From Clavibacter zhangzhiyongii (GTDB lineage: Bacteria; Actinomycetota; Actinomycetes; Actinomycetales; Microbacteriaceae), in assembly GCF_014775655.1 (NCBI RefSeq), contig NZ_CP061274.1, positions 2,356,001-2,420,000 on the forward strand: DNA of 64,000 nucleotides. The letters are read 5' to 3'. Within the stretch, counting starts at the first letter, position 1, and the number at the start of each line of letters is the position of its first letter. The position numbers were made by a program, and so were the translations under genes. The notes below the pieces were generated by a model that was not told where the DNA came from, ran no database searches, and was given only the letters and a program-made list of their open reading frames with translations. Positions 6,556 to 26,112 of this stretch are shown one piece after another.

Positions 6556-6954
6556 ATGACCGACACCCGCCCCCGCCGCCGCCGCCGGATCCTGATCGCG
6601 CTCGCCGTCGTCGTCGCCGCGGTCGTGCTCCTGATGCTCGCCCGGTACGCGACCCTCTCGGTGTTCGCGACGGAGGGGGACGTGCCGGCCGCCTCGTCCA
6701 TCCCGTTGCCGGAGGGAAGCGAGGTGGTCGACGAGGGCGTCGAGTGCGCGTCCGGGGGCTGCTGGCTGCTCCTCTCCGTGCGTCCTCCCGAGCAGATGAC
6801 GGTGGACGAGCTCGCGGCCGCGCTCGGAACCACCCCGCAGGCGCGCATCCCGGGGACGCCCTGGGACCCCCGCACCATCTCGCTGCGGGCGGAGCCGCAC
6901 GGGTCGCTCCTCCAGGTGCAGGCCGACTACTGGTCGCAGGAGTACGTGCCCTGA
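6556..6954 (+). CDS. Hypothetical single-pass membrane protein
   Basis: A 132-residue protein of unknown function. An Arg-rich cytoplasmic start (TDTRPRRRRR) is followed by one hydrophobic helix at about residues 12-30, giving an N-in/C-out topology. The extracytoplasmic domain of about 100 residues has a Cys pair (ECASGGC, near residues 62-68) that could form a disulfide. No recognisable family motif is seen. It is preceded by a -10 element that directly abuts the start codon and is followed by the ChaB-like gene 108 bases downstream. Confidence 0.7.
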   Translation: MTDTRPRRRRRILIALAVVVAAVVLLMLARYATLSVFATEGDVPAASSIPLPEGSEVVDEGVECASGGCWLLLSVRPPEQMTVDELAAALGTTPQARIPGTPWDPRTISLRAEPHGSLLQVQADYWSQEYVP

Positions 6955-7061
6955 TCCACGCGCCGGGATCGACGCCCTCGACGCCCGCGACGGCGGAGGG
7001 GCAGGGTGGGAGGGACAGCGGGAGCGCGACGCGCGCGACCGCCCGAGCACGAGGAGGATCC

Positions 7062-7466
7062 GTGGCCCCCGACGACGACGACGACGACATGCCCAGCACC
7101 ATCCGCCGCTCCCCCGAGCACGCGCAGGCCACCTGGTCAGCCGCGCACGCGGCGGCCGAGGAGCAGTACGGATCCGGCGAGCGCGCCGAGCGCACCGCCT
7201 ACGCCGCGCTCAAGCACGGCTTCGAGAAGGTCGGCGACCGCTGGGAGGCGAAGGACGAGAAGGGCCCGTCGGACGACGGCGCCGAGCGGCGCGGCGCGGG
7301 CACGGCCGGCGGCGTGGACGCGAACGCGTCGAAGGCGCACCTGATGGAGGTCGCGCGACGCCTCGACGTGCGCGGCCGCAGCCGCATGACGAAGGACGAG
7401 CTGGTCGACGGGATCCGGAAGGCGAACGACCGGGAGACCCGGAGGGCGCGCGAGCGCGAGGGCTGA
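7062..7466 (+). CDS. ChaB-family protein with C-terminal Rho N/SAP-like motif
   Basis: A 134-residue soluble protein. The N-terminal half matches the ChaB domain (PSTIRRSPEHAQATW, then AYAALKHGFEKVGDRWE). The C-terminal part (SKAHLMEVARRLDVRGRS, then MTKDELVDGI) resembles the Rho N-terminal/SAP-like helix-extension-helix often fused to ChaB in actinobacteria. ChaB was named as a cation transport regulator, but its biochemistry is unclear. The GTG at 7062 is selected because AGGAGG ends 4 bases before it; it adds a short poly-Asp N-terminus. The alternative ATG at 7089 lacks an RBS. It converges on the GNAT gene with a 3-base gap. Confidence 0.85.
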   Translation: MAPDDDDDDMPSTIRRSPEHAQATWSAAHAAAEEQYGSGERAERTAYAALKHGFEKVGDRWEAKDEKGPSDDGAERRGAGTAGGVDANASKAHLMEVARRLDVRGRSRMTKDELVDGIRKANDRETRRAREREG

Positions 7467-7469
7467 GGG

Positions 7470-8024
7470 TCAGTCCAGGTCGACGCGGAACAGCTCGCAC
7501 TCGGCGTCGTAGTAGGCGCGCGTGCGGCCGAGCGGGCGCATGCCGATCCGCCGGCACACCGCCTGCGACGGCGCGTTGGCCGGGTTCGTGACCGCGAGCA
7601 CGCGCCGGAGCCCGCCCGCGGCCGCGTGCTCGAGCACCCGCCGGGCCGCCTCGGTCGCGACGCCGCGGCCCCAGGCGTCCGGGTGCAGGTGCCAGCCGAT
7701 CTCCGTCTCGCCCTGCTCCGGCGCGTCGCGCGGGGCGGGGTCGTCGCCGGCGAGCGGCGCGGCGGATGCGGGCAGGTCCTTCAGCAGGAGCGTGCCGAGC
7801 AGCGGGCCGCCGTCGCGGTCGGCGATCGCCCAGATCCCGCGCACCGGGTGCTCGAGGGCGGCGTAGCGGGCGGCGCGGGCGACCGCCTTGGCGGGATCCG
7901 TGTGCACCTCCCCCGTGCCGATCCACCGCTGCACCTCGGGCCGGGAGTGCAGGTCGAGCAGGAAGGGCGCGTCCGCCTCGGTGAAGCGGCGGAGGAGCAG
8001 GCGGTCGGTCGCGAGGTCGGGCAT
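7470..8024 (-). CDS. GNAT-family N-acetyltransferase (RimJ/RimL-like)
   Basis: A 184-residue acetyltransferase of the Acetyltransf_3 type: TDRLLLRRFTEADAPFLLDL at the N-terminus, EIGWHLHPDAWGRGVATEA with the acetyl-CoA pyrophosphate loop (Q/R-x-x-G-x-G/A) at about residues 110-130, and NPANAPSQAVCRRIGM near the C-terminus. Substrate is not predictable; relatives acetylate ribosomal protein N-termini or small molecules. The ATG at 8024 is preceded at 6 bases by TAGCCT, a leaderless-type promoter. It is monocistronic. Confidence 0.9.
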   Translation of the reverse strand: MPDLATDRLLLRRFTEADAPFLLDLHSRPEVQRWIGTGEVHTDPAKAVARAARYAALEHPVRGIWAIADRDGGPLLGTLLLKDLPASAAPLAGDDPAPRDAPEQGETEIGWHLHPDAWGRGVATEAARRVLEHAAAGGLRRVLAVTNPANAPSQAVCRRIGMRPLGRTRAYYDAECELFRVDLD

Positions 8025-8030
8025 CGCCCC

Positions 8031-8036
8031 AGGCTA
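8031..8036 (-). promoter_or_regulatory. -10 element TAGCCT for the GNAT gene, leaderless
   Basis: On the minus strand TAGCCT is separated from the ATG at 8024 by exactly 6 bases with no room for a ribosome-binding site. The divergent gene at 8073 has a mirror-image arrangement at 8061-8066. Confidence 0.6.
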
Positions 8037-8060
8037 GGGGGCGACGTCGGTGGCTCCCCC

Positions 8061-8066
8061 TACCGT
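8061..8066 (+). promoter_or_regulatory. -10 element TACCGT, leaderless
   Basis: TACCGT lies 6 bases before the ATG at 8073, the same spacing as at many other genes here. Confidence 0.5.
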
Positions 8067-8072
8067 GACGGC

Positions 8073-9209
8073 ATGCCCGAGCCGGTGGATGCGTGGTGGG
8101 CGCGGCGCCGCTGGTCGCGCGGCCTCGACGTGCCGTACCCGGTGGGCACCTACCGCGAGGCGTGGGCGTCGTTCCCCGTGCTCATCCGGCAGTACCACCC
8201 CGAGCTCAACCGCGGCATCACGCTCACGCAGGTGCCGCCTGCGGCCGACGTGCTCCTCACCTGGCAGTGCGACGTCGGGCACGTCTTCGTGGCGACGCCC
8301 CAGGAGCAGCGGATGCGGCCGGGCCGCCAGCGCCGGCGGTCGTCGTGGTGCCCGGACTGCGCGGAGGCGGCCGCGCCGCGCACGCCCGTGCTGCCGATGG
8401 CGGATCAGGTGCGGTGGGCGGGCGCGTCGCCGCTGGTGGCGGGGCCGGTGGCGGGATCCCCGGTGCCGGGTGCGACGGCGGGCGCGGCGGCGGACGCTCC
8501 CGTCGGGGCCGCGCCGTCGGGATCCGGGGCGCCGCGGGGCCGGCGCGGGTCGCGTGACGGGATGCCCGCGCCGCGCGGCGCGGGTCGTGAACGCCGCGGG
8601 AAGGACGGGACGCCCAACGCGACCGCGTCTGCATCCGCACCCGCCCCCGCCCCCGCCCCCGCGGAGCGCCGCGCTGCTGCCGCCGCCCCGCCACCCACCC
8701 GGCCGCGCCGCTCCCCCGCCGTCTGCGCGAGGACGCCCGACCTCCCCGTCGGGGAGCCGTTCGCGAGCGCGTGCGCGCCGCCGCCCGCGTCCGCCGTCGA
8801 GGAGCGCCTCCGCCACGACCTCGCCGCCCGGCTCGAGCACACGCCGGGCCTCAACGCCGTCCGCCTCGCCCGCCCGTTCTTCGAGCACCTCGAGGCGTGG
8901 CCGGACATCCTGCTGCCCGAGCTGCGCGTCGCGATCGAGTACGACTCCACGGGCCGTCACGGCCTCGAGCACGTCGGCCGGCGCGAGGAGGCCGACCGCC
9001 GCAAGGACCGTGCGCTGCGGGCCGCCGGGTGGGAGGTGATCCGCATCCGCACGGGCAAGCTGCCGCCCCTCGGCCCCTACGACCTGTGCGTCTCGGGCCT
9101 CACCCGCGGCACGGTGGATCAGCTGCTCGACCGGCTCCGCGAGATCCGCGGTCCGCTGTTCGTCGACGCATACCTGCGCGAGGCCCCGCCGTCGGCCGCC
9201 GCGGGCTGA
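8073..9209 (+). CDS. Zinc-ribbon plus PD-(D/E)XK (DUF559/Vsr-like) nuclease-like protein
   Basis: A 378-residue protein with three parts. Residues 1-110 form a treble-clef/zinc-ribbon unit: W-x-C-DVGH...RRSSWCPDC, giving four ligands from LTWQC..GH and CPDC. The middle, about residues 115-240, is low-complexity Ala/Pro/Gly, including a short PA dipeptide run. Residues 245-360 resemble the DUF559/very-short-patch-repair fold: DILLPELRVAIEYD (acidic pair), GRHGLEH, then RRKDRALRAAGWEVIRIRTG. This suggests a nuclease acting on DNA or a mobile-element relict, but no activity is established. The ATG at 8073 follows a leaderless -10. The adjacent convergent gene encodes another nuclease-type domain. 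Confidence 0.72.
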   Translation: MPEPVDAWWARRRWSRGLDVPYPVGTYREAWASFPVLIRQYHPELNRGITLTQVPPAADVLLTWQCDVGHVFVATPQEQRMRPGRQRRRSSWCPDCAEAAAPRTPVLPMADQVRWAGASPLVAGPVAGSPVPGATAGAAADAPVGAAPSGSGAPRGRRGSRDGMPAPRGAGRERRGKDGTPNATASASAPAPAPAPAERRAAAAAPPPTRPRRSPAVCARTPDLPVGEPFASACAPPPASAVEERLRHDLAARLEHTPGLNAVRLARPFFEHLEAWPDILLPELRVAIEYDSTGRHGLEHVGRREEADRRKDRALRAAGWEVIRIRTGKLPPLGPYDLCVSGLTRGTVDQLLDRLREIRGPLFVDAYLREAPPSAAAG

Positions 9210-9226
9210 CGTCGCGCGCCGCGCCG

Positions 9227-9790
9227 TCAGCTGACCCGGAGCGCCAGCGCCTCGCTGCGCCAGCGCGCGAGCAGCTCCCACGGATCCGGCTGGCCGGCCT
9301 CGAGCGCGGCCACGTGCGCGCGCAGGTCCGCGTCGAGCGCGAACCACTCGGTGCGGGCGAAGCGCTGCCGCGCGAACTGCGCATGCCGCGCGCGCTCCAC
9401 GGCCCGGCCGCCGCGCTCGAACGCGAGCAGCTCGTCGTGCCGGAGCGTTCCGAGGCGCTGCCGCGGGTTCGCGCTGGTGCCGATCTTCATCCGGTCGCCG
9501 AAGCGGATGTAGTAGACGACATCGACCCGGGGCGGCGTGAGCTCGCCGTCGGGGTGGTCGCCGTGCCGCCACTCGCACACCGCGCACAGCCAGCCGGTCA
9601 GATACCGCACGCCGAGGCGCGATCCGCAGGCCGGGCACGGCGACGGCAGCACGTCCTCCACGCCGTGCGCCCGCTCCGCCCATCCGGCCGCCGCGACGAG
9701 GTGCGCCGCGCACAGCGGCACGGGCGCGTCGCGCTCGGCCGGAGCCGCGCAGCCCTCGGCACGGCACCCCGCTGATCCCCTCGACGTCAT
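9227..9790 (-). CDS. T5orf172 (GIY-YIG-like) domain protein with Cys-rich N-terminus
   Basis: A 187-residue protein. The N-terminal half carries Cys/His pairs (GCRAEGC...LCAAH and CPACGSRLG...LCAVCEW) typical of zinc-binding knuckles. The C-terminal half is a T5orf172/MUG113-type domain: VDVVYYIRFGDRMKIGTSAN, then PRQRLGTL and FARTEWFAL, a divergent GIY-YIG fold in which YYI and KIG mark the catalytic sheet. Related domains are found in phage and mobile-element proteins, and a nuclease function is plausible. TAGCGT lies 6 bases before the ATG at 9790. It sits tail to tail with the PD-(D/E)XK-like gene, 17 bases apart. Confidence 0.75.
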   Translation of the reverse strand: MTSRGSAGCRAEGCAAPAERDAPVPLCAAHLVAAAGWAERAHGVEDVLPSPCPACGSRLGVRYLTGWLCAVCEWRHGDHPDGELTPPRVDVVYYIRFGDRMKIGTSANPRQRLGTLRHDELLAFERGGRAVERARHAQFARQRFARTEWFALDADLRAHVAALEAGQPDPWELLARWRSEALALRVS

Positions 9791-9796
9791 GCTCCG

Positions 9797-9802
9797 ACGC
9801 TA
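9797..9802 (-). promoter_or_regulatory. -10 element TAGCGT, leaderless
   Basis: Minus-strand TAGCGT, 6 bases before the ATG at 9790. Confidence 0.55.
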
Positions 9803-9912
9803 GGCCGGGCGGCCGACACCGGATGCCGAGGGCATCGCGAGCGACGGCGCCCGAACGGGGGCGGGACCCATCCGCCATGCGTCCCTACGCTCGATGGGAC
9901 CCAGGAGGATCC

Positions 9913-10458
9913 TTGCCCCGACACGCCTTCGCGATGCCCGCCCTCGCGCTCATGCTCGCCCTGTCCATCTCCGGATGCTCGTCCACGCCGGCGGAGCCGG
10001 ACATCACGACGTCCCCCACGACGGCCGAGGCGGCACCGGCCCCCTCCGCGACCCCGGAGCCCGTCGACACCTCGGCAGCTGCCATCGCTTCGGCGATCAA
10101 GGCGTCGGTCCCGTCCGCCGGCGATGTGGTGCAGATCACCGAGGACAACGACCCGAACGACGTGATCGGTCGACCGACCGGGTACGTCGACGCCGCCACG
10201 CTCTACGACACCCGCGTGACGTGCGACGAGCTCGGTGCGGAGTGCGGGGCGTCCGTCGAGATCTGGGGCGATCCCGCTGCCGCGCAGGCGCGGATGGACT
10301 ACATCCAAGGCATCCTCGCCTCCACCACGGCGCTCGGGACCGAGTACGACTATGTGCGGGGCGACGCCATCATCCGGGTCACCGGCGTCCTGAAGCCCTC
10401 CGAGGCATCGGAGTACGAAGCCGCCATCGACGCGTACCTGGGCGCTCCCACCGGGTGA
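9913..10458 (+). CDS. Hypothetical lipoprotein
   Basis: A 181-residue exported lipoprotein. A basic start (LPRHAFA) leads to a hydrophobic stretch and the lipobox LSISGC, with the lipidated Cys at about residue 20, then a Pro/Thr/Ala-rich tether and a globular domain of about 130 residues with one Cys pair (VTCDELGAEC). The TTG at 9913 is chosen because AGGAGG ends 4 bases upstream; an ATG at 9934 would also leave a signal peptide. No known domain is recognised. It converges with the next gene, 20 bases apart. Confidence 0.78.
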   Translation: MPRHAFAMPALALMLALSISGCSSTPAEPDITTSPTTAEAAPAPSATPEPVDTSAAAIASAIKASVPSAGDVVQITEDNDPNDVIGRPTGYVDAATLYDTRVTCDELGAECGASVEIWGDPAAAQARMDYIQGILASTTALGTEYDYVRGDAIIRVTGVLKPSEASEYEAAIDAYLGAPTG

Positions 10459-10478
10459 CCCGTGCAGGGTCGCCGCCC

Positions 10479-10883
10479 CTACCCCCGCGCCCGCACCACC
10501 ACGGGCGCCGCGTCCTCGAGGCCGCGGCGGAGCTCCACCGACGTCCACGGCACGGGCGCCTCGGCGAAGATCGGCTCGAGGACCTCCCACATGATCCGGC
10601 GGTCCGGCCCCACGAAGTACACGTCGTAGGAGTCCTCGCCGAACTCGTTGCCGTCGATCCAGCCCGCCTCGAGCAGCTGGAGGGCGTCGTCGCCGGCGAT
10701 CTCGGTCGCGGCGAGCGACTCGAACGCCTCGTACGCCGACGCGGACTCGTCGGCCTCGAACCGCAGGACGACCCAGTCGTCGGGCTCCTCCTCGCGCGTC
10801 CAGGGCTGCGCGACCGCGACGATGGCGAGGGTGAGCCCGGTGATGATCCCGCTGAGGAGGAGCGCCTTGATCCGCGGCGTCAT
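10479..10883 (-). CDS. Hypothetical membrane-anchored protein
   Basis: A 134-residue protein of unknown function. One transmembrane helix at about residues 5-25 (IKALLLSGIITGLTLAIVAV) is followed by an acidic extracytoplasmic domain (TREEEPDDW, then DDALQLLEAGWIDGNEFGED, then YDVYFVGPDRRIMWEVLEP). The domain content looks like a small alpha/beta fold but no family is recognised. The ATG at 10883 is the natural start of the helix; no strong RBS is seen. Confidence 0.65.
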   Translation of the reverse strand: MTPRIKALLLSGIITGLTLAIVAVAQPWTREEEPDDWVVLRFEADESASAYEAFESLAATEIAGDDALQLLEAGWIDGNEFGEDSYDVYFVGPDRRIMWEVLEPIFAEAPVPWTSVELRRGLEDAAPVVVRARG

Positions 10884-16333: not shown

Positions 16334-16891
16334 ATGCCCACACGAGCCCTCGAATTCGACTGGCCCGACCGGGCCGTGGTCGGCACCATCGGCCTCCCGG
16401 GCGCCCGCACCTTCTACTTCCAGGTGCGCTCCGGTCCGCAGCTGGTGACCATCGCCCTCGAGAAGCAGCAGTCCGCGCTGCTCGCCGAGAAGATCGAGGA
16501 GATCCTCGACCAGCTCGTCACCGTCGAGGGCAACCCGTTCAGCGTCCCCACGAGCACGCCCCCGGAGCTCGTCGACAACGACCCGCTCGAGGACGTCGAC
16601 GAGCGCTGGCGCACCGGCGCCATGGGCCTCGGCTGGGATCCGTCGATGGCCCAGGTGGTCATCGAGGCGTACCCGCTCGCGGAGGACGACGACAGCGACG
16701 ACTTCGACCTGCCGAGCGCCGACGACGACACGGCCGACACCGAGATGCTCGTGGTGCGGATGCCCGTCGGTGCGGCCCGCGCGTTCGCGAAGCGCACCCA
16801 CGAGATCGTGGGCGCCGGCCGCCCGATCTGCGCCCTGTGCGGCTACCCCATCGACCCCGACGGGCACATCCACACCTTCCCCGACAACTGA
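16334..16891 (+). CDS. DUF3090 family protein
   Basis: A 185-residue cytoplasmic protein matching DUF3090: ALEFDWPDRAVVGTIGLPGA, then RTFYFQVRSGPQLVTIALEKQQ at the N-terminus, VVRMPVGAARAFAKRTHEIV, and a C-terminal zinc-knuckle-like CALCGYPIDPDGH. It is always found beside the MSMEG_4193-type phosphatase and the SCO1664-type protein in actinobacteria, but no biochemical role is established. Its stop overlaps the next start (TGATG), indicating coupling. Confidence 0.9.
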   Translation: MPTRALEFDWPDRAVVGTIGLPGARTFYFQVRSGPQLVTIALEKQQSALLAEKIEEILDQLVTVEGNPFSVPTSTPPELVDNDPLEDVDERWRTGAMGLGWDPSMAQVVIEAYPLAEDDDSDDFDLPSADDDTADTEMLVVRMPVGAARAFAKRTHEIVGAGRPICALCGYPIDPDGHIHTFPDN

Positions 16892-17658
16892 TGTCGGAGA
16901 CGGACCTCGTGACCGGCGAGCTCACGCTCACCGGCCGCATCCGCACCGCGTCGAACGCCACGTTCCTCGGCACCATCGGCGACACGGTCGTCGTCTACAA
17001 GCCCGTCGACGGCGAGAACCCGCTCTGGGACTTCCCCGACGGCAGGCTCGCCGACCGCGAGGTGGCCGCGTACCGGGTCTCCGAGGCGCTCGGCTGGAAC
17101 GTCGTCCCGCGCACGTGGCTCCGCGACGGCCCCCTCGGCGAGGGCATGGTGCAGCTCTGGCAGGACGAGGATCCCGACCAGGACGCCGTCGACCTGCTCC
17201 CGAGCGACGAGGTGCCCGAGACCGGGTACCGCACGGTGCTCGGCGGCGAGGACCAGGACGGCCGCTCGGTCACCCTCATCCACGAGGACTCCCCCGCCCT
17301 CCGTCGCATGGCCGTCTTCGACGTGATCGCCAACAATGCCGACCGCAAGGGCTACCACGTGCTCGCGATGCCCGACGGCCACCGCTTCGGCGTCGACCAC
17401 GGGCTCACCTTCCATGAGGACCACAAGCTGCGGACGGTGCTGTGGGGGTGGGTCGGGGATCCGCTCACCGCCGGGGAGCTCGCCGGTGTGGATCGGGTGC
17501 TCGCGGGGCTGGATGGGGAGTTGGGGCGGGAGTTGTCGGGGCTGCTGACGGCGGAGGAGATCGACGCGCTGCGCGCTCGGTGCACGCGGCTGCGCTCGGA
17601 GGCACGCTTCCCTGCGCCCGCTGGCCAACAGTCCGCGGTGCCCTGGCCGTTGTTCTAA
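16891..17658 (+). CDS. SCO1664 family protein (kinase-fold-like)
   Basis: A 255-residue protein of the SCO1664 family. VVVYKPVDGENPLWDFPDG near residue 30, RTWLRDGPLGEGMVQLWQ, and VFDVIANNADRKGYHVL followed by RFGVDHGLTFHED give the Lys, the NNADRK-type catalytic loop and the VDHG metal loop of HipA/PI3K-like kinases. A protein- or small-molecule-kinase fold is therefore likely, but the substrate is unknown. The ATG overlaps the DUF3090 stop by one base. It is the last host gene before the low-G+C island. Confidence 0.88.
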   Translation: MSETDLVTGELTLTGRIRTASNATFLGTIGDTVVVYKPVDGENPLWDFPDGRLADREVAAYRVSEALGWNVVPRTWLRDGPLGEGMVQLWQDEDPDQDAVDLLPSDEVPETGYRTVLGGEDQDGRSVTLIHEDSPALRRMAVFDVIANNADRKGYHVLAMPDGHRFGVDHGLTFHEDHKLRTVLWGWVGDPLTAGELAGVDRVLAGLDGELGRELSGLLTAEEIDALRARCTRLRSEARFPAPAGQQSAVPWPLF

Positions 17659-17960
17659 AAGCCCGCCGAGGACCGGCCGCCCGTACCCCGGCGCCGCACG
17701 CGATTAGTTGTTGAATCATAACTCCACCACGTTCCCATGGTCATGAGGTATTAGGCAACGCGAGGAGAAGGTGAGGAGTTCGGTCGCCCGCCGACGCTCG
17801 CCCAGCACGGACACTCGTCATCGTGGTTCGTCCAGTCGCACGCGGCGGGACCTGCGTGGTGGTGCATCCGGCCGAATCGACCAAGCTCTTCAGACCGGTG
17901 CTAGCATCGGATCATAACCTCAGGTGAACGGCCTGTTCTTTTAATGACCATGTGCCATGG
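17659..17960. other. Island left junction, no gene
   Basis: These 302 bases contain no credible coding frame. They hold the decayed copy of the ychF 3' end (17704-17750) followed by about 200 bases of mixed, lower-G+C sequence up to the hsdR stop codon. No terminator hairpin for hsdR or for the SCO1664-type gene was recognised. Confidence 0.6.
17704..17750 (-). repeat. Decayed direct repeat of the ychF 3' end (putative attachment site, left)
   Basis: Read on the minus strand this segment translates as Y-L-M, a one-base deletion, then H-G-N-V-V-E-L-stop-F-N-N-stop. The true ychF end at 26065-26112 reads [15 protein letters not shown]-stop. Shared blocks include agttgttgaa and aactccac, with roughly 70 percent identity over 47 bases. 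Both copies have the same orientation. It looks like an old attachment site or a relic left by insertion of the restriction island. Confidence 0.7.
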
Positions 17961-20900
17961 CTACTCCCCTGTCCCCATGCCGAGTCCGAAGAACCGCTCG
18001 AAGAACGAGCCGAGCTTGTCGATAACCCGCCTCTTCGTTTCGCCGCGACCTCCGCCGGCAGCGAAGCGGGAGACCGGCGGCAGAACCCTCGTGATTGCCG
18101 TCCCCGCGGTCCGCACCTGACCATCATGGAACGCAGTATCGACGAATGCTCGTGTGGCGTCAGGTCGGAGGTTTTCTTCCACGATTAGCGCCTCGAGCTC
18201 GGCCTCCCGCTTGGCTGCGATGAATTCCCACCATTCCTGGTCGAGCTCCCCGTCAACGGAGAGCGATTCGACGAAGTCCTCGATGAGGTCCTTCTTGTTA
18301 CGCAGTGTCGGGCTCGCTGCAACCGCACGGGAGATCTCAGCAAGGATCTTTTTGTCGTCCCCGTCGCCGCGCTCGTCGCGATACCTCCGGACGAGGATCA
18401 GAATGTAGTCGACATTGATCTCGACCTGTTTCATCAGTTCGATCTCAAAGACGACGTCGTCGTTAATCTGCTCCTTGTCAGCATTCTTGTCCTTGCGGAA
18501 GTCCGCGTAGAGGTCCAAGTACACGCTGCGGTAATCCTGCCCCTGACGTTCAGTCAGGATCCCATGACCGGTGAACTCATCGAACGAGGTCAGGATGTTC
18601 TGCAAGCGCAGGATCGCGCTAAAGAGCTTGATGAAATCCTTCTGTGCGGACTCACCGATGATCGACTGCTCGAGGGGGAATGTGGTCAGTAGCTCAGTGA
18701 CCTTGTCGACGTAATCGTCGGAGTACTCGCCATACGGTTTGAGCAGAACCACGCCGCGCGCGTCCTTGTTGCCGAACAGCGCGATCGCATCGTTGGTCTC
18801 CTCTTCGAGGTCACGGAAGCTGACGATGTTTCCGTACGTCTTCACCGAGTTCAGGATGCGATTGGTGCGGGAGTATGCCTGGATCAACCCGTGAGCGCGC
18901 AGGTTCTTGTCGACAAACAGCGTATTCAACGTCGTCGCGTCGAAACCGGTCAGGAACATGTTCACGACGATCACAAGGTCGATCTCGCGCTGCTTGAGCC
19001 GGAGGGACAGATCCTTATAGTAGTTCTGGAACCGATCGGCTGACGTGTCGAACGAAGTCCCGAACATGTCGTTGTAGTCCTGGATCGCGTCTTCCAGGAA
19101 CGACCGCGCGTCCATATTTAGCGCGCCCGTGTCGAAGCCTTCTTCGTCGAGCCCGCCGTCCTCGACCGCGTCGTTCGCGCCGTAAGAATAGATCAGACCA
19201 ACCTTCAGCCGCCGATCCGACGGCAGACCCCTCTGCTGCAACTGGAAGTGGTTGTAATAGACGCGGGCCGCCTCGATCGATGCGCTCGCGAACAGTGCGT
19301 TGAACCCCCGAACCCGCCGCTCACCCAGCGCGTAGTGCTCGGCACGCTTCGTCTTCTGGTCGAAGTGCTCGAGTGTGTAGCCCACAATCTGACTGATCCG
19401 CTCAGGAGCGACCAGCGCCTTCTCGGTGTCGATCGCAGAGACCTGCATATCTACCACGTTGCCGACTTTGACTGTATTGACGTAGTCGATCCGGAACGGC
19501 AGAACGTTCCTGTCGGTGATCGCGTCCACAATCGTGTAGGTGTGCAGCTTCTCCCCGAAGGCCTGCTCGGTGGTCTTCAGCTGCGGATTCCCGCCGCTCC
19601 CAGAGTTCACCGCGAAGATCGGCGTGCCGGTGAAACCGAAGAGGTTGTACCGTTTGAACGCCTTCGTGATCGAAACATGCATGTCGCCGAACTGCGAGCG
19701 ATGGCACTCGTCGAAGATGATCACCACATGGCCGTCGTAGATCGCATGGCCCTTGTTCGCACCAATGAACGTGGAGAGCTTCTGAATCGTCGTGATAATG
19801 ATCCGTGCTCCCGGATCCTCAAGCTGCTTCTTCAACACTGCAGTCGAGGTGTTGGAGTTGGCAGCACCTTTCTCGAACCGGTCGTACTCGCGCATCGTCT
19901 GATAGTCGAGGTCCTTGCGATCCACAACGAACAGCATCTTGTCGACGCTCGGCAGTTTCGAGGCGAGCTGCGCGGCCTTAAACGACGTCAGAGTCTTGCC
20001 CGAACCTGTCGTGTGCCAGACATACCCGCCAGCGGCGAGGCTGCCAAGTGTCTTGTAGTTGGTCGAGACATCGATCCTCTGCAGGATCCTCTCCGTCGCG
20101 ACGATCTGGTACGGCCGCATCACCAGCAACATCCGGTCGGCCGTGAGCACGCAATACTTCGTCAGCACGTTCAACAGGGAGTGCTTGGCAAAGAACGTCC
20201 GCGCGAACGCCGACAGGTCAGCGATCGGCTTGTTTTGCGCGTCTGCCCACCACGACGTGAACTCGAACGAGTTGCTGGTCTTCCGCACCCGTTTCGCGCC
20301 CGAGGCTTCACTTAGGTGCTCCCGGCGCGTCGTGTTCGAGTAATACTTCGTCAACGTGCCGTTCGAGATCACAAACAGCTGGACGTACTCGAAGAGACCG
20401 GAGCCAGCCCAGAAACTGTCGCGCTGGTAGCGGTCGATCTGGTTGAACGCCTCACGGATGTCAACACCGCGACGCTTCAGCTCGACGTGCACCAAAGGTA
20501 GGCCGTTAACCAGGACGGTGACGTCGTATCGGTTCGAAGGCGCCGAACCACCTTCGCTCTGGCCCGTTTCGTACTGGTTAACCAGTTGCAGTCGGTTGTT
20601 GTGAATGTTCTGCTTGTCAATCAACATGATGTTCTTGATTGAGCCATCGTCGCGCTTCAGCAGCTGAACATGATCCTCTTGGATCCGTACCGTCTTATCG
20701 GCAATGCCCTCGTTCACCCCAGCGATACGCTCATTAAAGAAGTGACCCCACTCCGCGTCGGAGAAGGCGATGGCATTCAGTGCTTCAAGCTGCACCCGCA
20801 GGTTTGAGACCAGCTGGGCCTCGGACGAAATCGGCAAATACTCGTACGCCTGTGACTGCAACAGCCGGATCAGCTCACGCTCGAGCTCGGCCTCCGACTG

Positions 20901-20999
20901 ATACGCGCCGGCACCAAATCCGTCCGGACTGTATAGAGCAACAACGGTGCTCTCGCTCGACATCGCGATCGGAGCATAGTGCAAATGTTGATTCGTCAC
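17961..20999 (-). CDS. hsdR: Type I restriction enzyme R subunit (ATP-dependent translocase/nuclease)
   Basis: A 1012-residue HsdR. The N-terminal nuclease domain has D159, E173-L-K175 and the Q187-x3-Y191 motif. The SF2 motor shows Walker A HTTGSGKT (329-336), motif II DECH (430-433), FGFTGTPIF (about 455) and the later helicase motifs, then a helical C-terminal domain for binding the methyltransferase core. It translocates DNA and cuts at a distance when the HsdM/HsdS complex meets an unmodified site. The GTG at 20999 overlaps the stop of the PrrC-like gene (GTGA), making it the last gene of the operon hsdM-mrr-hsdS-prrC-hsdR. All catalytic residues are intact. Confidence 0.96.
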   Translation of the reverse strand: MTNQHLHYAPIAMSSESTVVALYSPDGFGAGAYQSEAELERELIRLLQSQAYEYLPISSEAQLVSNLRVQLEALNAIAFSDAEWGHFFNERIAGVNEGIADKTVRIQEDHVQLLKRDDGSIKNIMLIDKQNIHNNRLQLVNQYETGQSEGGSAPSNRYDVTVLVNGLPLVHVELKRRGVDIREAFNQIDRYQRDSFWAGSGLFEYVQLFVISNGTLTKYYSNTTRREHLSEASGAKRVRKTSNSFEFTSWWADAQNKPIADLSAFARTFFAKHSLLNVLTKYCVLTADRMLLVMRPYQIVATERILQRIDVSTNYKTLGSLAAGGYVWHTTGSGKTLTSFKAAQLASKLPSVDKMLFVVDRKDLDYQTMREYDRFEKGAANSNTSTAVLKKQLEDPGARIIITTIQKLSTFIGANKGHAIYDGHVVIIFDECHRSQFGDMHVSITKAFKRYNLFGFTGTPIFAVNSGSGGNPQLKTTEQAFGEKLHTYTIVDAITDRNVLPFRIDYVNTVKVGNVVDMQVSAIDTEKALVAPERISQIVGYTLEHFDQKTKRAEHYALGERRVRGFNALFASASIEAARVYYNHFQLQQRGLPSDRRLKVGLIYSYGANDAVEDGGLDEEGFDTGALNMDARSFLEDAIQDYNDMFGTSFDTSADRFQNYYKDLSLRLKQREIDLVIVVNMFLTGFDATTLNTLFVDKNLRAHGLIQAYSRTNRILNSVKTYGNIVSFRDLEEETNDAIALFGNKDARGVVLLKPYGEYSDDYVDKVTELLTTFPLEQSIIGESAQKDFIKLFSAILRLQNILTSFDEFTGHGILTERQGQDYRSVYLDLYADFRKDKNADKEQINDDVVFEIELMKQVEINVDYILILVRRYRDERGDGDDKKILAEISRAVAASPTLRNKKDLIEDFVESLSVDGELDQEWWEFIAAKREAELEALIVEENLRPDATRAFVDTAFHDGQVRTAGTAITRVLPPVSRFAAGGGRGETKRRVIDKLGSFFERFFGLGMGTGE

Positions 21000-22060
21000 G
21001 CCGCTATCCTCCAGTTGAACGCCTTGAGAAACTCGTGGAACTCATTCTTGAAGGCATCCGTCAGCTCCACGGAAATTACCGAGGAATCGGTGTCTGCGAA
21101 CCGATCATGACTGTACAAATTGAGAACCCTCGTCAGAACGACGGCATCAGGCCCCTTGAGCAACTCACCCCATCCCCCGGTGTATCCTAGGAAGTTTGCT
21201 GTTTTTTCGAGAAGCGCGCGGAACTGATTGAAGTGGCTCCTTTGAACCCTGTCTTCTGAAATTGCCAGTTGGATCTCCTCTATAAGCGCGAGGTGATAAC
21301 TGAATGGAGCGTCCTGAGATTGGCGCTTCAACGCCCATCCCGCCGGCCTGCCTCGCTGAAGTACGTATGCCCGATCCCTCTTGCGACGGAGAGAGTTGAA
21401 TAGCACATTAAAAAAGAGTGGGTGGTGGGTCGCAATGACAAATTGCAGATTGACACCTGACGCGCGTTTTATCAAATCAGATAAGGCGAGCGCTACAGTG
21501 ACGATACGCACGTCGTCCATGGACGACACAGGGTCGTCGATCACGGCAAGAGTTAGGCCATCGTAGTCAGATGTTGAGCGCAGGTCGACGGGATCGCTAA
21601 GCGTGTCAACCGCTTCACTTAGGACAGTGTAGTAGACACACCAGACGAAGACGCTTTCTTCTGCGCGCGATATTTTAATACCGCCACCCGAGCTATCGTC
21701 ACCACTGTGTATGCCAAAGCTAACTTCACCATTGGCTAAGTCGAGTATTGGTTCTATCTTACCGCTTGTGAAGTGTTGAAAGTTGTCGACGATTGCACCA
21801 TCAAGACCCTGAGTCTCAATAGTTTTCATAAGTTCGTGACCGAGGTTCATCTTGAGCACGCGTCGCTCATTGTCCCACGTAAACACGTCCTCGACGTAAG
21901 AGTTATAGAGCACTACACCATCGGCGTCACGATGCTTCAGGCGTTGCGCCAACCGCGTTTTTCCGGTCGTGTTCGGCGCATAGATAAGGCCAGTAGATAA
22001 ATCAGCCATGCTGTCCAGTAGGGAATCGGCAAGATCATCGATTGTTTCGTGAAAATGCAT
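20996..22060 (-). CDS. PrrC-like ABC-type ATPase, candidate anticodon nuclease
   Basis: A 354-residue protein. The ABC-type nucleotide domain shows Walker A APNTTGKT (28-35), a degenerate signature ISRAEES (130-136), Walker B LAVIDDPVSSMDD (171-183, with the DDPVSS hallmark of PrrC/RloC ATPases) and a switch His in IATHHP (about 212). The C-terminal 100 residues hold R281-ALL-E285 and H318. E. coli PrrC uses R320, E324 and H356, so the R-to-E spacing is identical and the E-to-H spacing is 33 instead of 32. The position between hsdS and hsdR is also that of prrC in the E. coli prr locus. By analogy it would be held silent by the restriction complex and would cut a tRNA anticodon loop when that complex is inhibited. 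It has no zinc-hook coiled coil, which argues against RloC. The function is inferred. Confidence 0.72.
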   Translation of the reverse strand: MHFHETIDDLADSLLDSMADLSTGLIYAPNTTGKTRLAQRLKHRDADGVVLYNSYVEDVFTWDNERRVLKMNLGHELMKTIETQGLDGAIVDNFQHFTSGKIEPILDLANGEVSFGIHSGDDSSGGGIKISRAEESVFVWCVYYTVLSEAVDTLSDPVDLRSTSDYDGLTLAVIDDPVSSMDDVRIVTVALALSDLIKRASGVNLQFVIATHHPLFFNVLFNSLRRKRDRAYVLQRGRPAGWALKRQSQDAPFSYHLALIEEIQLAISEDRVQRSHFNQFRALLEKTANFLGYTGGWGELLKGPDAVVLTRVLNLYSHDRFADTDSSVISVELTDAFKNEFHEFLKAFNWRIAA

Positions 22061-22063
22061 AGG

Positions 22064-23236
22064 CTACCGTGCCTCATTGAAGGTTAGGAGCCTGTCACGG
22101 TAGTACTCGTACTGCTTGCGGCGCGCACTGATCTCGGCGGGTAGGCCAATCGACAAATCATTTACGATTTCGTCGAAACTCGCCAACGCTGAAGCGACCC
22201 GCCGCTGCGTTTCAAGCGAGGGCAACTGGACTCGTAAGCGCTTGAAGCCATCCACATCGATGTTCTTTTGTGCAGACTGCGTCGAAGTCGTGAAGATGAT
22301 TGGTTGCATACTTAGGAGAAGTTGGCCCACAAAATTCTTATCAACGGAGGCATCCGTCACGTCGAGAGTGAAGCCCGAGTCAAGCATCCAGAACTTTTCT
22401 GTAACCCGCCGTACACAGTTCGCCGACATCGCAAAACGAGATATCACCCATTCGTCTTCACGATTAAACGCGTCAGTCCGGAAGCTTTCGCCCCCACCCC
22501 CATAGACCGGATAAACGGTGCCAGCATTATCTTTCTTCGTAATCCGAGCCCCGAAATTTAAATGAACAATCTCACCGAGTGAAACGTCTCTGACACTTGC
22601 GTCATCTGACGAGTTCAGCAACACGGCGCGGTAGTACTCATACTGGCCGCGGCGGGCTTCCAGCTCTGCTTCCAGCTCTGCTTCCAGCTCTGCTTCCAGC
22701 TGAGTAAATTGATCCAATACTCGCACGATTTCGCGCTGAACCGGAAGAGGCGGGACAGGGATTCGGATATTGGCAAATCCTTGAGACGGCAATGAACGAA
22801 CTTTCGTCCCGCTAATATGACGTCGCTTTTGCTCATCAAAATCACTAGAGCGTAAAAAATACGAGACGTATTTTGGATCTAAAGCCGAAGTGTAAATGAG
22901 CGTGTGGTTACTAACAGCCACAGGCCGATTACCCAACCAGGCAACCCCTCGCGCGAGATCCTCGTCGTTTTCTCCCGTTACCGCAATAATCACGTCGCCT
23001 GGCTGAGCTTGGCGCGACTTTGCAGCCACTTCTTCCGACACGAATACGTTCGTTTCGGCAGCATGGACACCGTATTTGGTGTAGATCTGCCCGTAATGAA
23101 TGCAGCCCACTCCTTCGGAACTAAAATCTTTCTTCTGAGGACCTCCGCCACGAATGAATGTACCAATTTCTCCAAACGTTTTGCGCTCTACGCCATCCGG
23201 GCACAGCTCATGGACCAATTCGCTAATACGGCTCAT
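22064..23236 (-). CDS. hsdS: Type I restriction enzyme specificity subunit
   Basis: A 390-residue HsdS with two target-recognition domains (about residues 15-165 and 205-365), each followed by a conserved helix. The first ends IPVPPLPVQREIVRVLDQF and the second RLRVQLPSLETQRRVASALASF, both leading to RRxQYEYYR. Between the halves, residues 180-194 form an ELEA repeat encoded by 12-bp tandem units, comparable to the TAEL repeat of type IC HsdS. It determines the bipartite DNA sequence recognised. The ATG overlaps the mrr-like stop (ATGA), and the PrrC-like gene begins 3 bases after its stop. Recognition sequence not predictable. Confidence 0.95.
   Translation of the reverse strand: MSRISELVHELCPDGVERKTFGEIGTFIRGGGPQKKDFSSEGVGCIHYGQIYTKYGVHAAETNVFVSEEVAAKSRQAQPGDVIIAVTGENDEDLARGVAWLGNRPVAVSNHTLIYTSALDPKYVSYFLRSSDFDEQKRRHISGTKVRSLPSQGFANIRIPVPPLPVQREIVRVLDQFTQLEAELEAELEAELEARRGQYEYYRAVLLNSSDDASVRDVSLGEIVHLNFGARITKKDNAGTVYPVYGGGGESFRTDAFNREDEWVISRFAMSANCVRRVTEKFWMLDSGFTLDVTDASVDKNFVGQLLLSMQPIIFTTSTQSAQKNIDVDGFKRLRVQLPSLETQRRVASALASFDEIVNDLSIGLPAEISARRKQYEYYRDRLLTFNEAR
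22657..22704 (+). repeat. 12-bp tandem repeat in the hsdS central spacer
   Basis: The unit cttccagctctg occurs three times exactly and once in part (22657-22704), encoding a four-residue repeat in HsdS. Such repeats can gain or lose units by slippage without a frameshift, changing the distance between the two half-sites. Confidence 0.92.
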
Positions 23237-24171
23237 GCGAAGAAGTCCTCATCTAACTCGACAACTCTGTACGTCTCGCGGACCTGAACGCCCACGCCGT
23301 ACCTGATCATGAGTGTCGTCAGGCGCTTGCCATCGATAAGGATGATCCTCGTCGGGACATTCTCTGCGTACATACGTGCACCGTCCGAGAATCGGCTCGT
23401 CGTGATAAAGATCCCGCGATCGGCCTTTCCTGCGAGAGCACCGACGAAGGCCTGCAGGTCGGGTCGCGCGACCGTGTTGCCTTCGGCGTATCTTTTCGCC
23501 TGGATGTATACACGACTGAGTCCAAGGATGTCCTGGTCGATCACGCCGTCGATGCCGCCGTCGTTGCTAAGCTGCGTGACGCTTCCCTTGCCCGTCGTGC
23601 CGCCATATCCCATGGCGAGCAACAGGTCTACGACAGCCTGTTCGAAGAATGCGGGTTCCTTGCCCTGCAGGCGCTCGAGCAGCTCGGCGGCGACTTCCTC
23701 GCGAATACGCGCGACACCCTCCTGCACCTGCTCGATGGGGGTCAGCGACGACGAAAGCTCGTCGTGGAGTAGAGCGCTGGCGAGACCGCCTGCGCTCTTC
23801 GAACGCGGCCCCGACGACTGATAGACCCTGATCGGAGAAGAAGGATCTTCACCAAGAGTCTTGATGTCGCGTTCCTTGATTCCGCCCGGGAAGAGCTGGA
23901 GAAGCTGCCGACCCGGTTCAGTGATCCGGTAATGCCCCCGCTTCGGTCGTTCCAAACCACCGACATTGGTCAGGAACGAAACTCCCCAGCCAAGCCGGTT
24001 CTGGTACTTGATCTGGCTCCCGGATGGAAGCATCTCCGTCTTTTGTTCGTCGGTGAGGCGACACTCGTCGGCGACCAGGGGCTGGAACTCACGCCAGTGC
24101 ATGGTCGCACCCGAGTTCAACACCCGCAGTGTTGGGATCATGAACTCCTCCCAGGTGGGCATCTCGGTCAT
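23233..24171 (-). CDS. Mrr-family restriction endonuclease
   Basis: A 312-residue protein with a Mrr_N winged-helix domain at residues 1-95 (MPTWEEFMIPTLRVLNSG, then LERPKRGHYRITEPGRQLL), a linker with a helical segment, and a C-terminal Mrr catalytic domain from about residue 172: FFEQAVVDLLLAMGYGG, D208 in GGIDG, and Q224-A-K226 in VYIQAKRY, giving the D-(x)15-QxK active site. E. coli Mrr cuts methylated DNA. Its placement between hsdM and hsdS, with TAATG and ATGA junctions on either side, shows co-expression with the type I enzyme, so its specificity must tolerate the host's own HsdM methylation. Catalytic residues are intact. Confidence 0.92.
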   Translation of the reverse strand: MTEMPTWEEFMIPTLRVLNSGATMHWREFQPLVADECRLTDEQKTEMLPSGSQIKYQNRLGWGVSFLTNVGGLERPKRGHYRITEPGRQLLQLFPGGIKERDIKTLGEDPSSPIRVYQSSGPRSKSAGGLASALLHDELSSSLTPIEQVQEGVARIREEVAAELLERLQGKEPAFFEQAVVDLLLAMGYGGTTGKGSVTQLSNDGGIDGVIDQDILGLSRVYIQAKRYAEGNTVARPDLQAFVGALAGKADRGIFITTSRFSDGARMYAENVPTRIILIDGKRLTTLMIRYGVGVQVRETYRVVELDEDFFA

Positions 24172-25739
24172 TACTTTGTGCCCTCGAGATCGGCGACGAT
24201 CTCGTCGATGGACATGCGCAGTACGGCCTGACGCGCGACAATCCGGTCTATCTCGGCATTTAACACGGTGATGTCGATAGTCTCGCTGGTGTCCTCCCGC
24301 TCGACATACGACGACACCGCGATGTTGTAACCGTTTGCGGCGATGTCCTCGTTCGGCACGAGCGTCGCGACATAGTCGACATTTGTACGGGCGGTGAACG
24401 TATCGAGGATGTGCTTCTGGTTAGTCTCCGTCATCTTGTTCTTGTTGCCGCTGCGCTTGAACTCGGCTGAGGCATCAATGAACTGAACTTCGTTGTCGCT
24501 CTTGGACTTCTTTAGCACGATTATGCAGGTGGCGATCGTGGTACCAAAGAATAAGTCCGGAGGAAGTTGGATGACGGCATCGACGTAGTTGTTGTCGACG
24601 AGGTACTTGCGGATCTTTTGCTCCGCTCCCCCGCGGTATAGAACCCCAGGGAACTCGACGATCGCCGCGGTGCCGTTGACGGCGAGCCAAGATAGCATGT
24701 GCATCGTGAAGGCAAGGTCGGCCTTCGACTTTGGAGCGAGCACTCCGGCGGGCGCGAACCGGGGGTCGTTTATAAGCAGCGGGTTCGCATCACCAGCCCA
24801 CCTGATCGAGTACGGCGGGTTGGAGACGATCGCCTCGAACGGCTCATCATCCCAGTGCGCAGGATCAATGAGCGTGTCGCCATGGGCGAGGTTGAACTTC
24901 TCGTAGTTCACGTCGTGCAGGAACATGTTGATCCTGGCGAGGTTGTACGTGGTCAGGTTAATTTCCTGCCCGTAGAATCCTTGGCGAACGTTCTCTTTAC
25001 CGAGTACCTTTGCGAATTTCAGTAGCAGCGAGCCCGAGCCGACAGCCGGGTCATAGACTTTGTTCACCTGAGTCTTGCCGGCCACGGTGATGCGGGCCAG
25101 CAACTCAGAGACCTCTTGCGGCGTGTAGTACTCGCCGCCGGACTTACCCGCACTTGAGGCGTACATCTGCATGAGGTATTCGTACGCGTCGCCGAACAGA
25201 TCGATCGAGTTGTCTTCGAAGTTCCCCAGCGGCAGGTCGCCGATCGCATCGAGAAGTTTCACAAGTTTCTCGTTGCGCTTCGTGACAGTGGGGCCGAGCT
25301 TGGAGCTGTTCACGTCGAGGTCGTCAAACAAGCCCTTGAGGTCGTCCTCGGCAGCAGTGCCGACAGCGGAGCCCTCGATGTTTTTGAAGACCCGAGCGAG
25401 CGTCTCGTTCAGGTTCGTGTCACGGGGCGCGCGTTCACGCACGTTCTGGAACAGCTCTGACGGAAAGATGTAGAAGCCCTTCTCGTCTACCGTCTCCTCG
25501 CGGCCGTACTCAGCGTCCGAGTCTGGAAGGCGCGTGTAGTCGAAGTCCGCGTTCCCCGCGTCTTGCTCGCTATTGTTAATGTAGGCGGTCAAGTTTTCGG
25601 AGATAAACCGGTAGAACAGCGTGCCCAGCACGTAAGACTTGAAGTCCCAGCCGTCCACCGAGCCGCGCAGGTCGTTCGCAATGCGCCAGATGGTCTTGTG
25701 TAGTTCTGCGCGCTGGCCGTCGCTAGTCGTCGGTGTCAT
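24171..25739 (-). CDS. hsdM: Type I restriction-modification DNA methyltransferase subunit
   Basis: A 522-residue N6-adenine methyltransferase subunit. HsdM_N helical domain (residues 9-150, LHKTIWRIANDLRGSVDGWDF), YYTPQEVSELLARI at about 204, SAM-binding motif I DPAVGSGSLLL near 230, and catalytic motif IV SNPPYS near 306-311. First gene of the operon; its TAA overlaps the mrr-like ATG. The ATG at 25739 starts just before the conserved helix with GAGGA close upstream. Another in-frame ATG lies at 25772 and the frame is open to 25868, so the exact N-terminus is uncertain by a few residues. Confidence 0.95.
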   Translation of the reverse strand: MTPTTSDGQRAELHKTIWRIANDLRGSVDGWDFKSYVLGTLFYRFISENLTAYINNSEQDAGNADFDYTRLPDSDAEYGREETVDEKGFYIFPSELFQNVRERAPRDTNLNETLARVFKNIEGSAVGTAAEDDLKGLFDDLDVNSSKLGPTVTKRNEKLVKLLDAIGDLPLGNFEDNSIDLFGDAYEYLMQMYASSAGKSGGEYYTPQEVSELLARITVAGKTQVNKVYDPAVGSGSLLLKFAKVLGKENVRQGFYGQEINLTTYNLARINMFLHDVNYEKFNLAHGDTLIDPAHWDDEPFEAIVSNPPYSIRWAGDANPLLINDPRFAPAGVLAPKSKADLAFTMHMLSWLAVNGTAAIVEFPGVLYRGGAEQKIRKYLVDNNYVDAVIQLPPDLFFGTTIATCIIVLKKSKSDNEVQFIDASAEFKRSGNKNKMTETNQKHILDTFTARTNVDYVATLVPNEDIAANGYNIAVSSYVEREDTSETIDITVLNAEIDRIVARQAVLRMSIDEIVADLEGTK

Positions 25740-26064
25740 GTCCTCAGTATCCTCGCCATCCCGGACGACCATACCCACCACCACACTACGAACCTCGGCC
25801 CCACCGCTCACGCGGATCACGAGCTGCGAACGGTGGCGTGAGGCTCCTGACCTGCCGTAGTGGTCCAACAGCTGCTCCTGCTGCGTTCTGACAACTGGCG
25901 GAGGTTGTCACCGCGGACGAAAGTGCGACGTGGGCTGGACGTCACACGTACACGTGCCCGGACGCGCGGTTCCCCTGTCCCGGGGGCGAGGTGCCGGCAG
26001 TGCCCTTACCCCTGTTGTCAAGACGTCAGGACGTCGGCCGTCACCGGTCATGCGACGTAACAGG
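25740..26064 (-). promoter_or_regulatory. Upstream region of the restriction operon
   Basis: These 325 bases between hsdM and the ychF 3' end contain no convincing gene. They hold an inverted repeat at 25889-25910 (tgacaac and gttgtca around 8 bases), a third gttgtca at 26014, and a gacgtc direct repeat near 26022. The promoter for the operon should lie here, but no clear -35/-10 pair was recognised. Confidence 0.45.
25889..25910. promoter_or_regulatory. Inverted repeat, possible operator for the hsd operon
   Basis: TGACAAC and GTTGTCA are perfect 7-base arms separated by 8 bases, about 150 bases upstream of hsdM. The shape fits a dimeric repressor or controller site, but no regulator gene is linked to it. 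Confidence 0.35.
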
Positions 26065-26112
26065 TCAGTTGTTGAACCGGAACTCCACAACATCCCCGTC
26101 CTGCATGACGTA
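26065..26112 (-). repeat. Direct repeat at the intact ychF 3' end (putative attachment site, right)
   Basis: The last 15 codons and stop of ychF. The same stretch recurs in decayed form at 17704-17750, so it marks the right boundary of the restriction island. Confidence 0.65.

Follow-up and report, generated by a model that had tools for sequence, protein, structure and literature searches.

A predicted PrrC anticodon nuclease in an actinobacterial type IC-like restriction operon

The 64-kb window (the whole stretch of DNA that was analysed) contains a gene that is very probably the prrC of an actinobacterial type IC-like prr locus and that, by analogy with E. coli, would encode a latent tRNA-Lys nuclease held in check by the HsdRMS complex. 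Our confidence in the assignment of the predicted protein to the PrrC family, made by sequence comparison, is high, the mechanism is transferred by homology, and our confidence in the details of its substrate is low to moderate. The gene belongs to a tight minus-strand run of five genes, hsdM, mrr, hsdS, prrC and hsdR, situated in an interval that varies among relatives:

17658-26068: variable interval, from a conserved flanking gene (16891-17658) to the YchF GTPase gene, compared with loci L123-L133
24171-25739, minus strand: hsdM, DNA methyltransferase (TIGR00497), by NCBIfam/Pfam models
23233-24171, minus strand: Mrr-type restriction endonuclease (Mrr_N and Mrr_cat) between hsdM and hsdS, by profile models
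22064-23236, minus strand: hsdS, specificity subunit, by profile models
20996-22060, minus strand: prrC, 354-residue ABC-ATPase with a predicted C-terminal HEPN-type anticodon nuclease, by PADLOC model and alignment
21107-21130, minus strand: prrC codons 311-318 (RVLNLYSH), HEPN-type R-x6-H motif with H318 last
17961-20999, minus strand: hsdR, type I restriction subunit with an EcoR124_C domain, by profile models

The start of hsdM was set at the ATG at 25739 (the mechanical ORF begins at a TTG at 25868). The hsdM and mrr genes overlap by 1 base and mrr and hsdS by 4 bases, and the gap between hsdS and prrC is 3 bases. The prrC frame is intact from its ATG at 22060 to the last base of its stop codon at 20996, and the stop overlaps the start of hsdR as GTGA. 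Both this overlap and the location of a gene for a 354-residue ATPase between hsdS and hsdR had been described in the first-pass annotation of this DNA, with which our coordinates for prrC agree. The EcoR124_C domain of HsdR is presumably a marker of type IC systems, and the operon is a type IC-like restriction operon carrying prrC.

The PADLOC model for PrrC spans residues 5-351 of the 354-residue protein with an E-value of 6.8e-90 (300 bits), values which indicate that the resemblance to PrrC is not due to chance. As a stand-in for E. coli PrrC we used a 396-residue protein of E. coli plasmid CP057689.1 (L011), chosen by its residue positions, since it has R, E, H and D at exactly 320, 324, 356 and 287, as published for E. 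coli PrrC; the same model matches this protein with an E-value of 7.7e-148. The two proteins align over their full length with 36% identity, and R320, E324, H356 and D287 of L011 pair with R281, E285, H318 and D250 of the window protein. The Walker A motif APNTTGKT and the DDPVSS motif are both in the window protein, and the ABC signature is present but altered (SRAEES vs SKGEES in E. coli-type PrrC). All of the residues and motifs on which the earlier PrrC-like label had been based are at the positions given for them, and the profile match and the alignment now uphold that label. The remark that the R-E spacing equals that of E. coli PrrC also held against L011, as did the difference of one in the E-H spacing (33 in the window protein, 32 in L011). 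In addition, R311-x6-H318 fits the HEPN motif Rx4-6H (PMC3710099). The window shares with the prr locus of E. coli (EcoprrI, a type Ic system; represented by L011) the gene order, the Walker A and B motifs, the R-x3-E and H residues and D287. In contrast, the window protein is 42 residues shorter than L011, most of the difference falling in an insert near the N-terminus and in the loop that follows Walker A, and Ala replaces Asn beside its catalytic Arg. The protein had been regarded as short, but its 354 residues lie inside the size range of 341-416 residues given for PrrC in PMC2610378. Matches to the window PrrC were present in 113 of 72,556 plasmid records, and in 96 of these the match spanned 80% or more of the query; identity was below 60% throughout, and several of the proteins were annotated as "anticodon nuclease". 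Searches of phage records gave no match, and those of viral contigs no confirmed match.

To examine conservation we used an alignment of 88 rows, comprising the window protein, eight plasmid relatives and 79 genome-contig relatives; two of the 89 loci were left out, L019 (the same stretch as L020) and L040 (extracted frame of 6 residues). The genome loci are the best 80 of at least 525 relatives, that is, those nearest to the window protein. However, the patterns by which these 80 were scanned fall within the ATPase part, without R281, E285, H318 or D250, so that conservation of the triad is not built into the set, even though the loci favour window-like proteins. R281, E285 and H318 are kept in all 88 rows of these best genome relatives and plasmid proteins, the three actinobacterial relatives included, and the lack of conservation that the first-pass annotation had named as counting against its proposal was therefore not seen. 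The Lys after E285, as well as D175, D176 and the switch H212, are likewise kept in 88 of 88 rows, the Ser before H318 in 86, and K34 in 87, the exception being a row shortened by a contig end. The D250 column has Asp in 85 rows and another residue in three, and column 311 has Arg in 81, Lys in six and Cys in one. The aligned proteins range from 354 to 416 residues with a median of 385 (one contig-end row has 305), and the window PrrC is the shortest complete protein among the 88 rows.

Gene order was surveyed by ordering the best tblastn hits in the same 80 genome loci (again, the best 80 of at least 525 relatives). HsdR is downstream of prrC in 79 loci, and the full order M-S-prrC-R is present in 70, among them that of Kocuria, which has Mrr between M and S. 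In eight of the 10 loci without the full order, no more than 1.5 kb separates the match from the end of its contig. Among the exceptions, L050 has HsdM downstream of prrC, and in L059 prrC is ahead of hsdM-hsdS, with no HsdR match within the stretch. The first-pass annotation had likened the position of the gene to that in the E. coli prr locus, which has the order hsdM-hsdS-prrC-hsdR (PMC3014915), and 76 of the 80 best relatives have HsdS before and HsdR after prrC, in line with that comparison. According to PMC2610378, PrrC is invariably linked to type Ic systems. Unlike the window, the Klebsiella plasmid locus L016 has the order hsdS-ATPase-hsdM with hsdR upstream, and the locus of PrrC170 from Klebsiella quasipneumoniae, compared by its description, has the order HsdR, HsdS, PrrC, HsdM (PMC11555353). 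PrrC170 is like the window PrrC in accompanying a type I system, and it is reported as a tested anti-phage defence that hits tRNA-Lys (PMC11555353). In Salinivibrio (L015) a small gene annotated as winged helix-turn-helix (7135-7335) is located between prrC and hsdR. Two E. coli plasmid records, L011 and L017, have an intact prr locus with phage-like genes nearby, such as those for a terminase or a late promoter activator and genes of the Phd/Doc type.

The AlphaFold2 model of the window PrrC, with an alignment input of 46 rows (the window protein and 45 of 76 listed references), had a mean pLDDT of 86.7 and a pTM of 0.72. It has C-terminal helices at residues 254-268, 274-291, 306-317 and 331-347, with R281 and E285 within the second of these, R311 in the third and H318 just after it. 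The best Foldseek matches to the whole model were Rad50, SMC heads and retron-complex ATPases; no HEPN protein was named among the 50 matches listed, which, with the whole model as query, were to ATPase heads. A PDB sequence search returned no PrrC structure and two weak profile matches, both Rad50 heads. The window PrrC is therefore predicted to consist of a Rad50/SMC-like ATPase head and a helical C-terminal part.

The PrrCs of Pseudoclavibacter sp. 125703-2019 (L020), Kocuria subflava (L021) and Galactobacter valiniphilus (L022) are about 70% identical to the window PrrC, and the next relative among the matches listed has 43% identity. These actinobacterial relatives are 355-358 residues long (L022 is cut by a contig end) and have the same triad, and their HsdR proteins are 74-88% identical to that of the window. 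The window protein and these three form one clade (support 100/100), nested in a nine-row clade (100/100) that is separate from the clade of 74 rows to which E. coli PrrC belongs. Deeper placement in this tree is unsure because of long branches (L016, L059, L042 and L034) and the unusual composition of the actinobacterial rows, for both of which warnings were raised. The Victivallis locus L078 has HsdM and HsdR proteins 75% and 60% identical to those of the window, yet its prrC groups with that of E. coli in the large clade, a pattern that hints at exchange of prrC between like operons.

Among 396 genomes of the phylum, nine had a match to the PADLOC PrrC model, of which only that of the window genome itself was strong (the next had an E-value of 1.4e-11); the matches in the eight further genomes were weak, at most 44 bits, and in other, longer frames. 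Only two of 398 family genomes matched at 1e-12, the window genome and the Pseudoclavibacter genome noted above (G779), in which the match is an intact 358-residue frame. At the threshold of the PrrC model prrC is thus rare near the window genome. Actinobacterial PrrC as such is not new, as Brevibacterium is an actinobacterium and its species Brevibacterium linens BL2 is a precedent. This strain was listed as PrrC-encoding in the RloC paper of 2008 (PMC2610378). Our literature search for PrrC in Microbacteriaceae found no paper on the subject, and one on actinobacterial PrrC in type I restriction led to that RloC paper, a 2026 review and a paper on denitrification. The window prrC locus opens no new kind of system; it extends a guard system of restriction enzymes that is already well understood by a clear clade from high-GC Gram-positive bacteria.

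A PrrC anticodon nuclease is expected to be silenced by the restriction complex and activated by its inhibitor together with dTTP. By extension from E. coli PrrC, the window PrrC would be made together with the Hsd subunits and kept silent by the HsdRMS complex. Should a phage inhibitor or other event disable restriction, the ATPase part would change shape and release the nuclease, which would then cut the anticodon loop of tRNA-Lys 5' of the wobble base, so that translation would stop and the infection would be aborted. The neighbouring Mrr probably adds a separate layer, the cutting of wrongly modified DNA. Based on this analogy and on what has been published on PrrC function (PMC3014915, PMC2610378, PMC3710099, PMC11555353, PMC12707154), the window PrrC is a candidate anticodon nuclease of the HEPN type, latent until released and probably directed at tRNA-Lys.

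The choice of target is complicated by the wobble chemistry of the host. E. coli PrrC is reported to be a poor cutter of tRNA-Lys that is missing either wobble modification; its D287 is thought to contact the modified wobble base, and D287 mutants tolerate hypomodified tRNA (PMC3014915). Unlike E. coli, the host of the window, which has MnmA over the cut-off, gave no match to MnmG and matched the MnmE model only in part and below the cut-off, in what was the sole genome searched for MnmE. A similar situation is described for M. tuberculosis, which has MnmA but apparently not the enzymes for the subsequent step (PMC10531406). MnmG had no match in the hosts of the three actinobacterial relatives either (0 of 4 clade hosts), whereas it is present in nine of the 11 other PrrC hosts tested, from among 77 non-actinobacterial genome loci; the two hosts lacking it have genomes of 1.1 and 1.4 Mb, perhaps incomplete, and belong to the nine-row clade. 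Across 60 family genomes, the window genome included, none had MnmG over the cut-off and nine had weak partial matches. The tRNA-Lys of the clade hosts should therefore be without the mnm5 group at the wobble base, a group favoured by E. coli PrrC; considering the poor cutting of hypomodified tRNA-Lys, a simple transfer of the substrate is uncertain. What is mildly new is that the four actinobacterial PrrCs form a tight clade with MnmG missing from all of its hosts, and this set of loci allows one to ask whether PrrC specificity follows the wobble-base chemistry of the host.

These considerations suggest that the window PrrC either reads s2U34 tRNA-Lys or has another target. We favour tRNA-Lys based on PrrC170, which at 35% identity to E. 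coli PrrC is reported to target tRNA-Lys still (PMC11555353), and the likely target would be tRNA-Lys(UUU), with a wobble base expected to be s2U instead of mnm5s2U. It is possible, though doubtful, that the substrate differs from that of E. coli PrrC, being another tRNA, tRNA-Lys(CUU), or tRNA-Lys(UUU) recognized via s2U alone; the last case overlaps our main reading, and the likelihoods of the readings consequently do not sum to one. The distribution of MnmG is consistent with a differing substrate, as is the residue beside the catalytic R281, which corresponds to N321 of E. coli-type PrrC and is Ala in all four clade members (A282) and Asn in 78 of the 84 other rows. The host also carries two candidate tRNAs, tRNA-Lys(TTT) and tRNA-Lys(CTT). 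However, the clade retains D250, which corresponds to the wobble-contact residue D287, and did not take the D287 route to tolerance of hypomodified tRNA described in PMC3014915; the TTT tRNA has the loop CTTTTAA and A73 (A73 is in the CTT tRNA as well); and two of the 11 other PrrC hosts also lack MnmG. The first-pass annotation had proposed that the target tRNA may be new, and its case is mixed: the modification enzymes and the private A282 speak for it, D250 and PrrC170 against it. On a reading that we put forward tentatively, the clade works in cells without MnmE and MnmG and must therefore cut tRNA-Lys with s2U only, a poor substrate for E. coli PrrC, or another tRNA. This actinobacterial branch would then have been re-tuned to s2U tRNA-Lys without mnm5, or to another tRNA, via changes such as N321 to A282 rather than by the D287 route, with Mrr and PrrC as separable add-ons giving three defence layers.

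We consider it improbable that the protein is an ATPase that has degenerated, or has a purely regulatory role, and lacks nuclease activity. Its Walker A is divergent, with changes of F to P and G to T in the three clade members that cover the motif, and the clade has the altered signature SRAEES, but the intact frame, the full triad (retained in the three actinobacterial relatives too), R311-x6-H318 and the Walker Lys speak against this reading. Even less credible, and rejected here, is that the protein is an RloC or a generic AAA_13 ATPase. RloC resembles the window PrrC in having an ABC-ATPase and a C-terminal R-x3-E...H anticodon nuclease, but is described as having a zinc-hook coiled coil and 658-897 residues and as rarely linked to restriction loci (PMC2610378). 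With a single Cys (C141), the window protein of 354 residues has no CXXC zinc hook, the hallmark of RloC, and its place in the operon and model score are those of PrrC. The protein does match Pfam AAA_13 (2.3e-9), a family that covers PrrC and other ATPases, and the PrrC model weakly matches the longer frames in eight phylum genomes noted above; its 300 bits for the window protein are nonetheless far from their 44 bits or less.

The Mrr gene was found, at 1e-50, in 29 of the 398 family genomes. In the six closest Mrr loci (that of the window and L135-L139) HsdM is before and HsdS after Mrr, and the other 24 had no HsdM match in flanks of at most about 1.5 kb. Loci L164, L165 and L166 have the order hsdM-mrr-hsdS-hsdR with no prrC match, as does L167, in which an unassigned 1.1-kb stretch separates mrr from the HsdS match; in L168 the 2 kb that remain downstream of the HsdS match contain neither an HsdR match nor one to prrC. 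When the whole operons of Pseudoclavibacter and Kocuria were compared, Mrr was between hsdM and hsdS, as in the window, only in Kocuria (2360-3283 of L021), so that the window and Kocuria have both genes and Pseudoclavibacter has prrC without mrr. Since there are loci with prrC only, mrr only or both, the two genes appear to come and go separately, as separable modules of one actinobacterial type I operon. Otherwise alike operons with or without prrC and mrr provide a way to ask which parts of HsdR silence PrrC.

The corresponding site was taken from 11 of 12 same-genus relatives, and both flanking genes were present in 10 of the 11. The distance from flank to flank is 52 to 7648 bases in the relatives vs 8409 in the window, L132 representing a near-empty site. 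Seven of 10 scanned proteins from the relatives' inserts match PADLOC models, among them those of a type I system unlike that of the window and a type IIG enzyme, and some inserts have candidate defence genes. The window locus has the appearance of cargo carried at a defence spot whose content varies. In the same-genus relative L124, a 1315-residue frame at this site (6793-10740) has a C-terminal part that matches the PADLOC models named PRTase_III-A.
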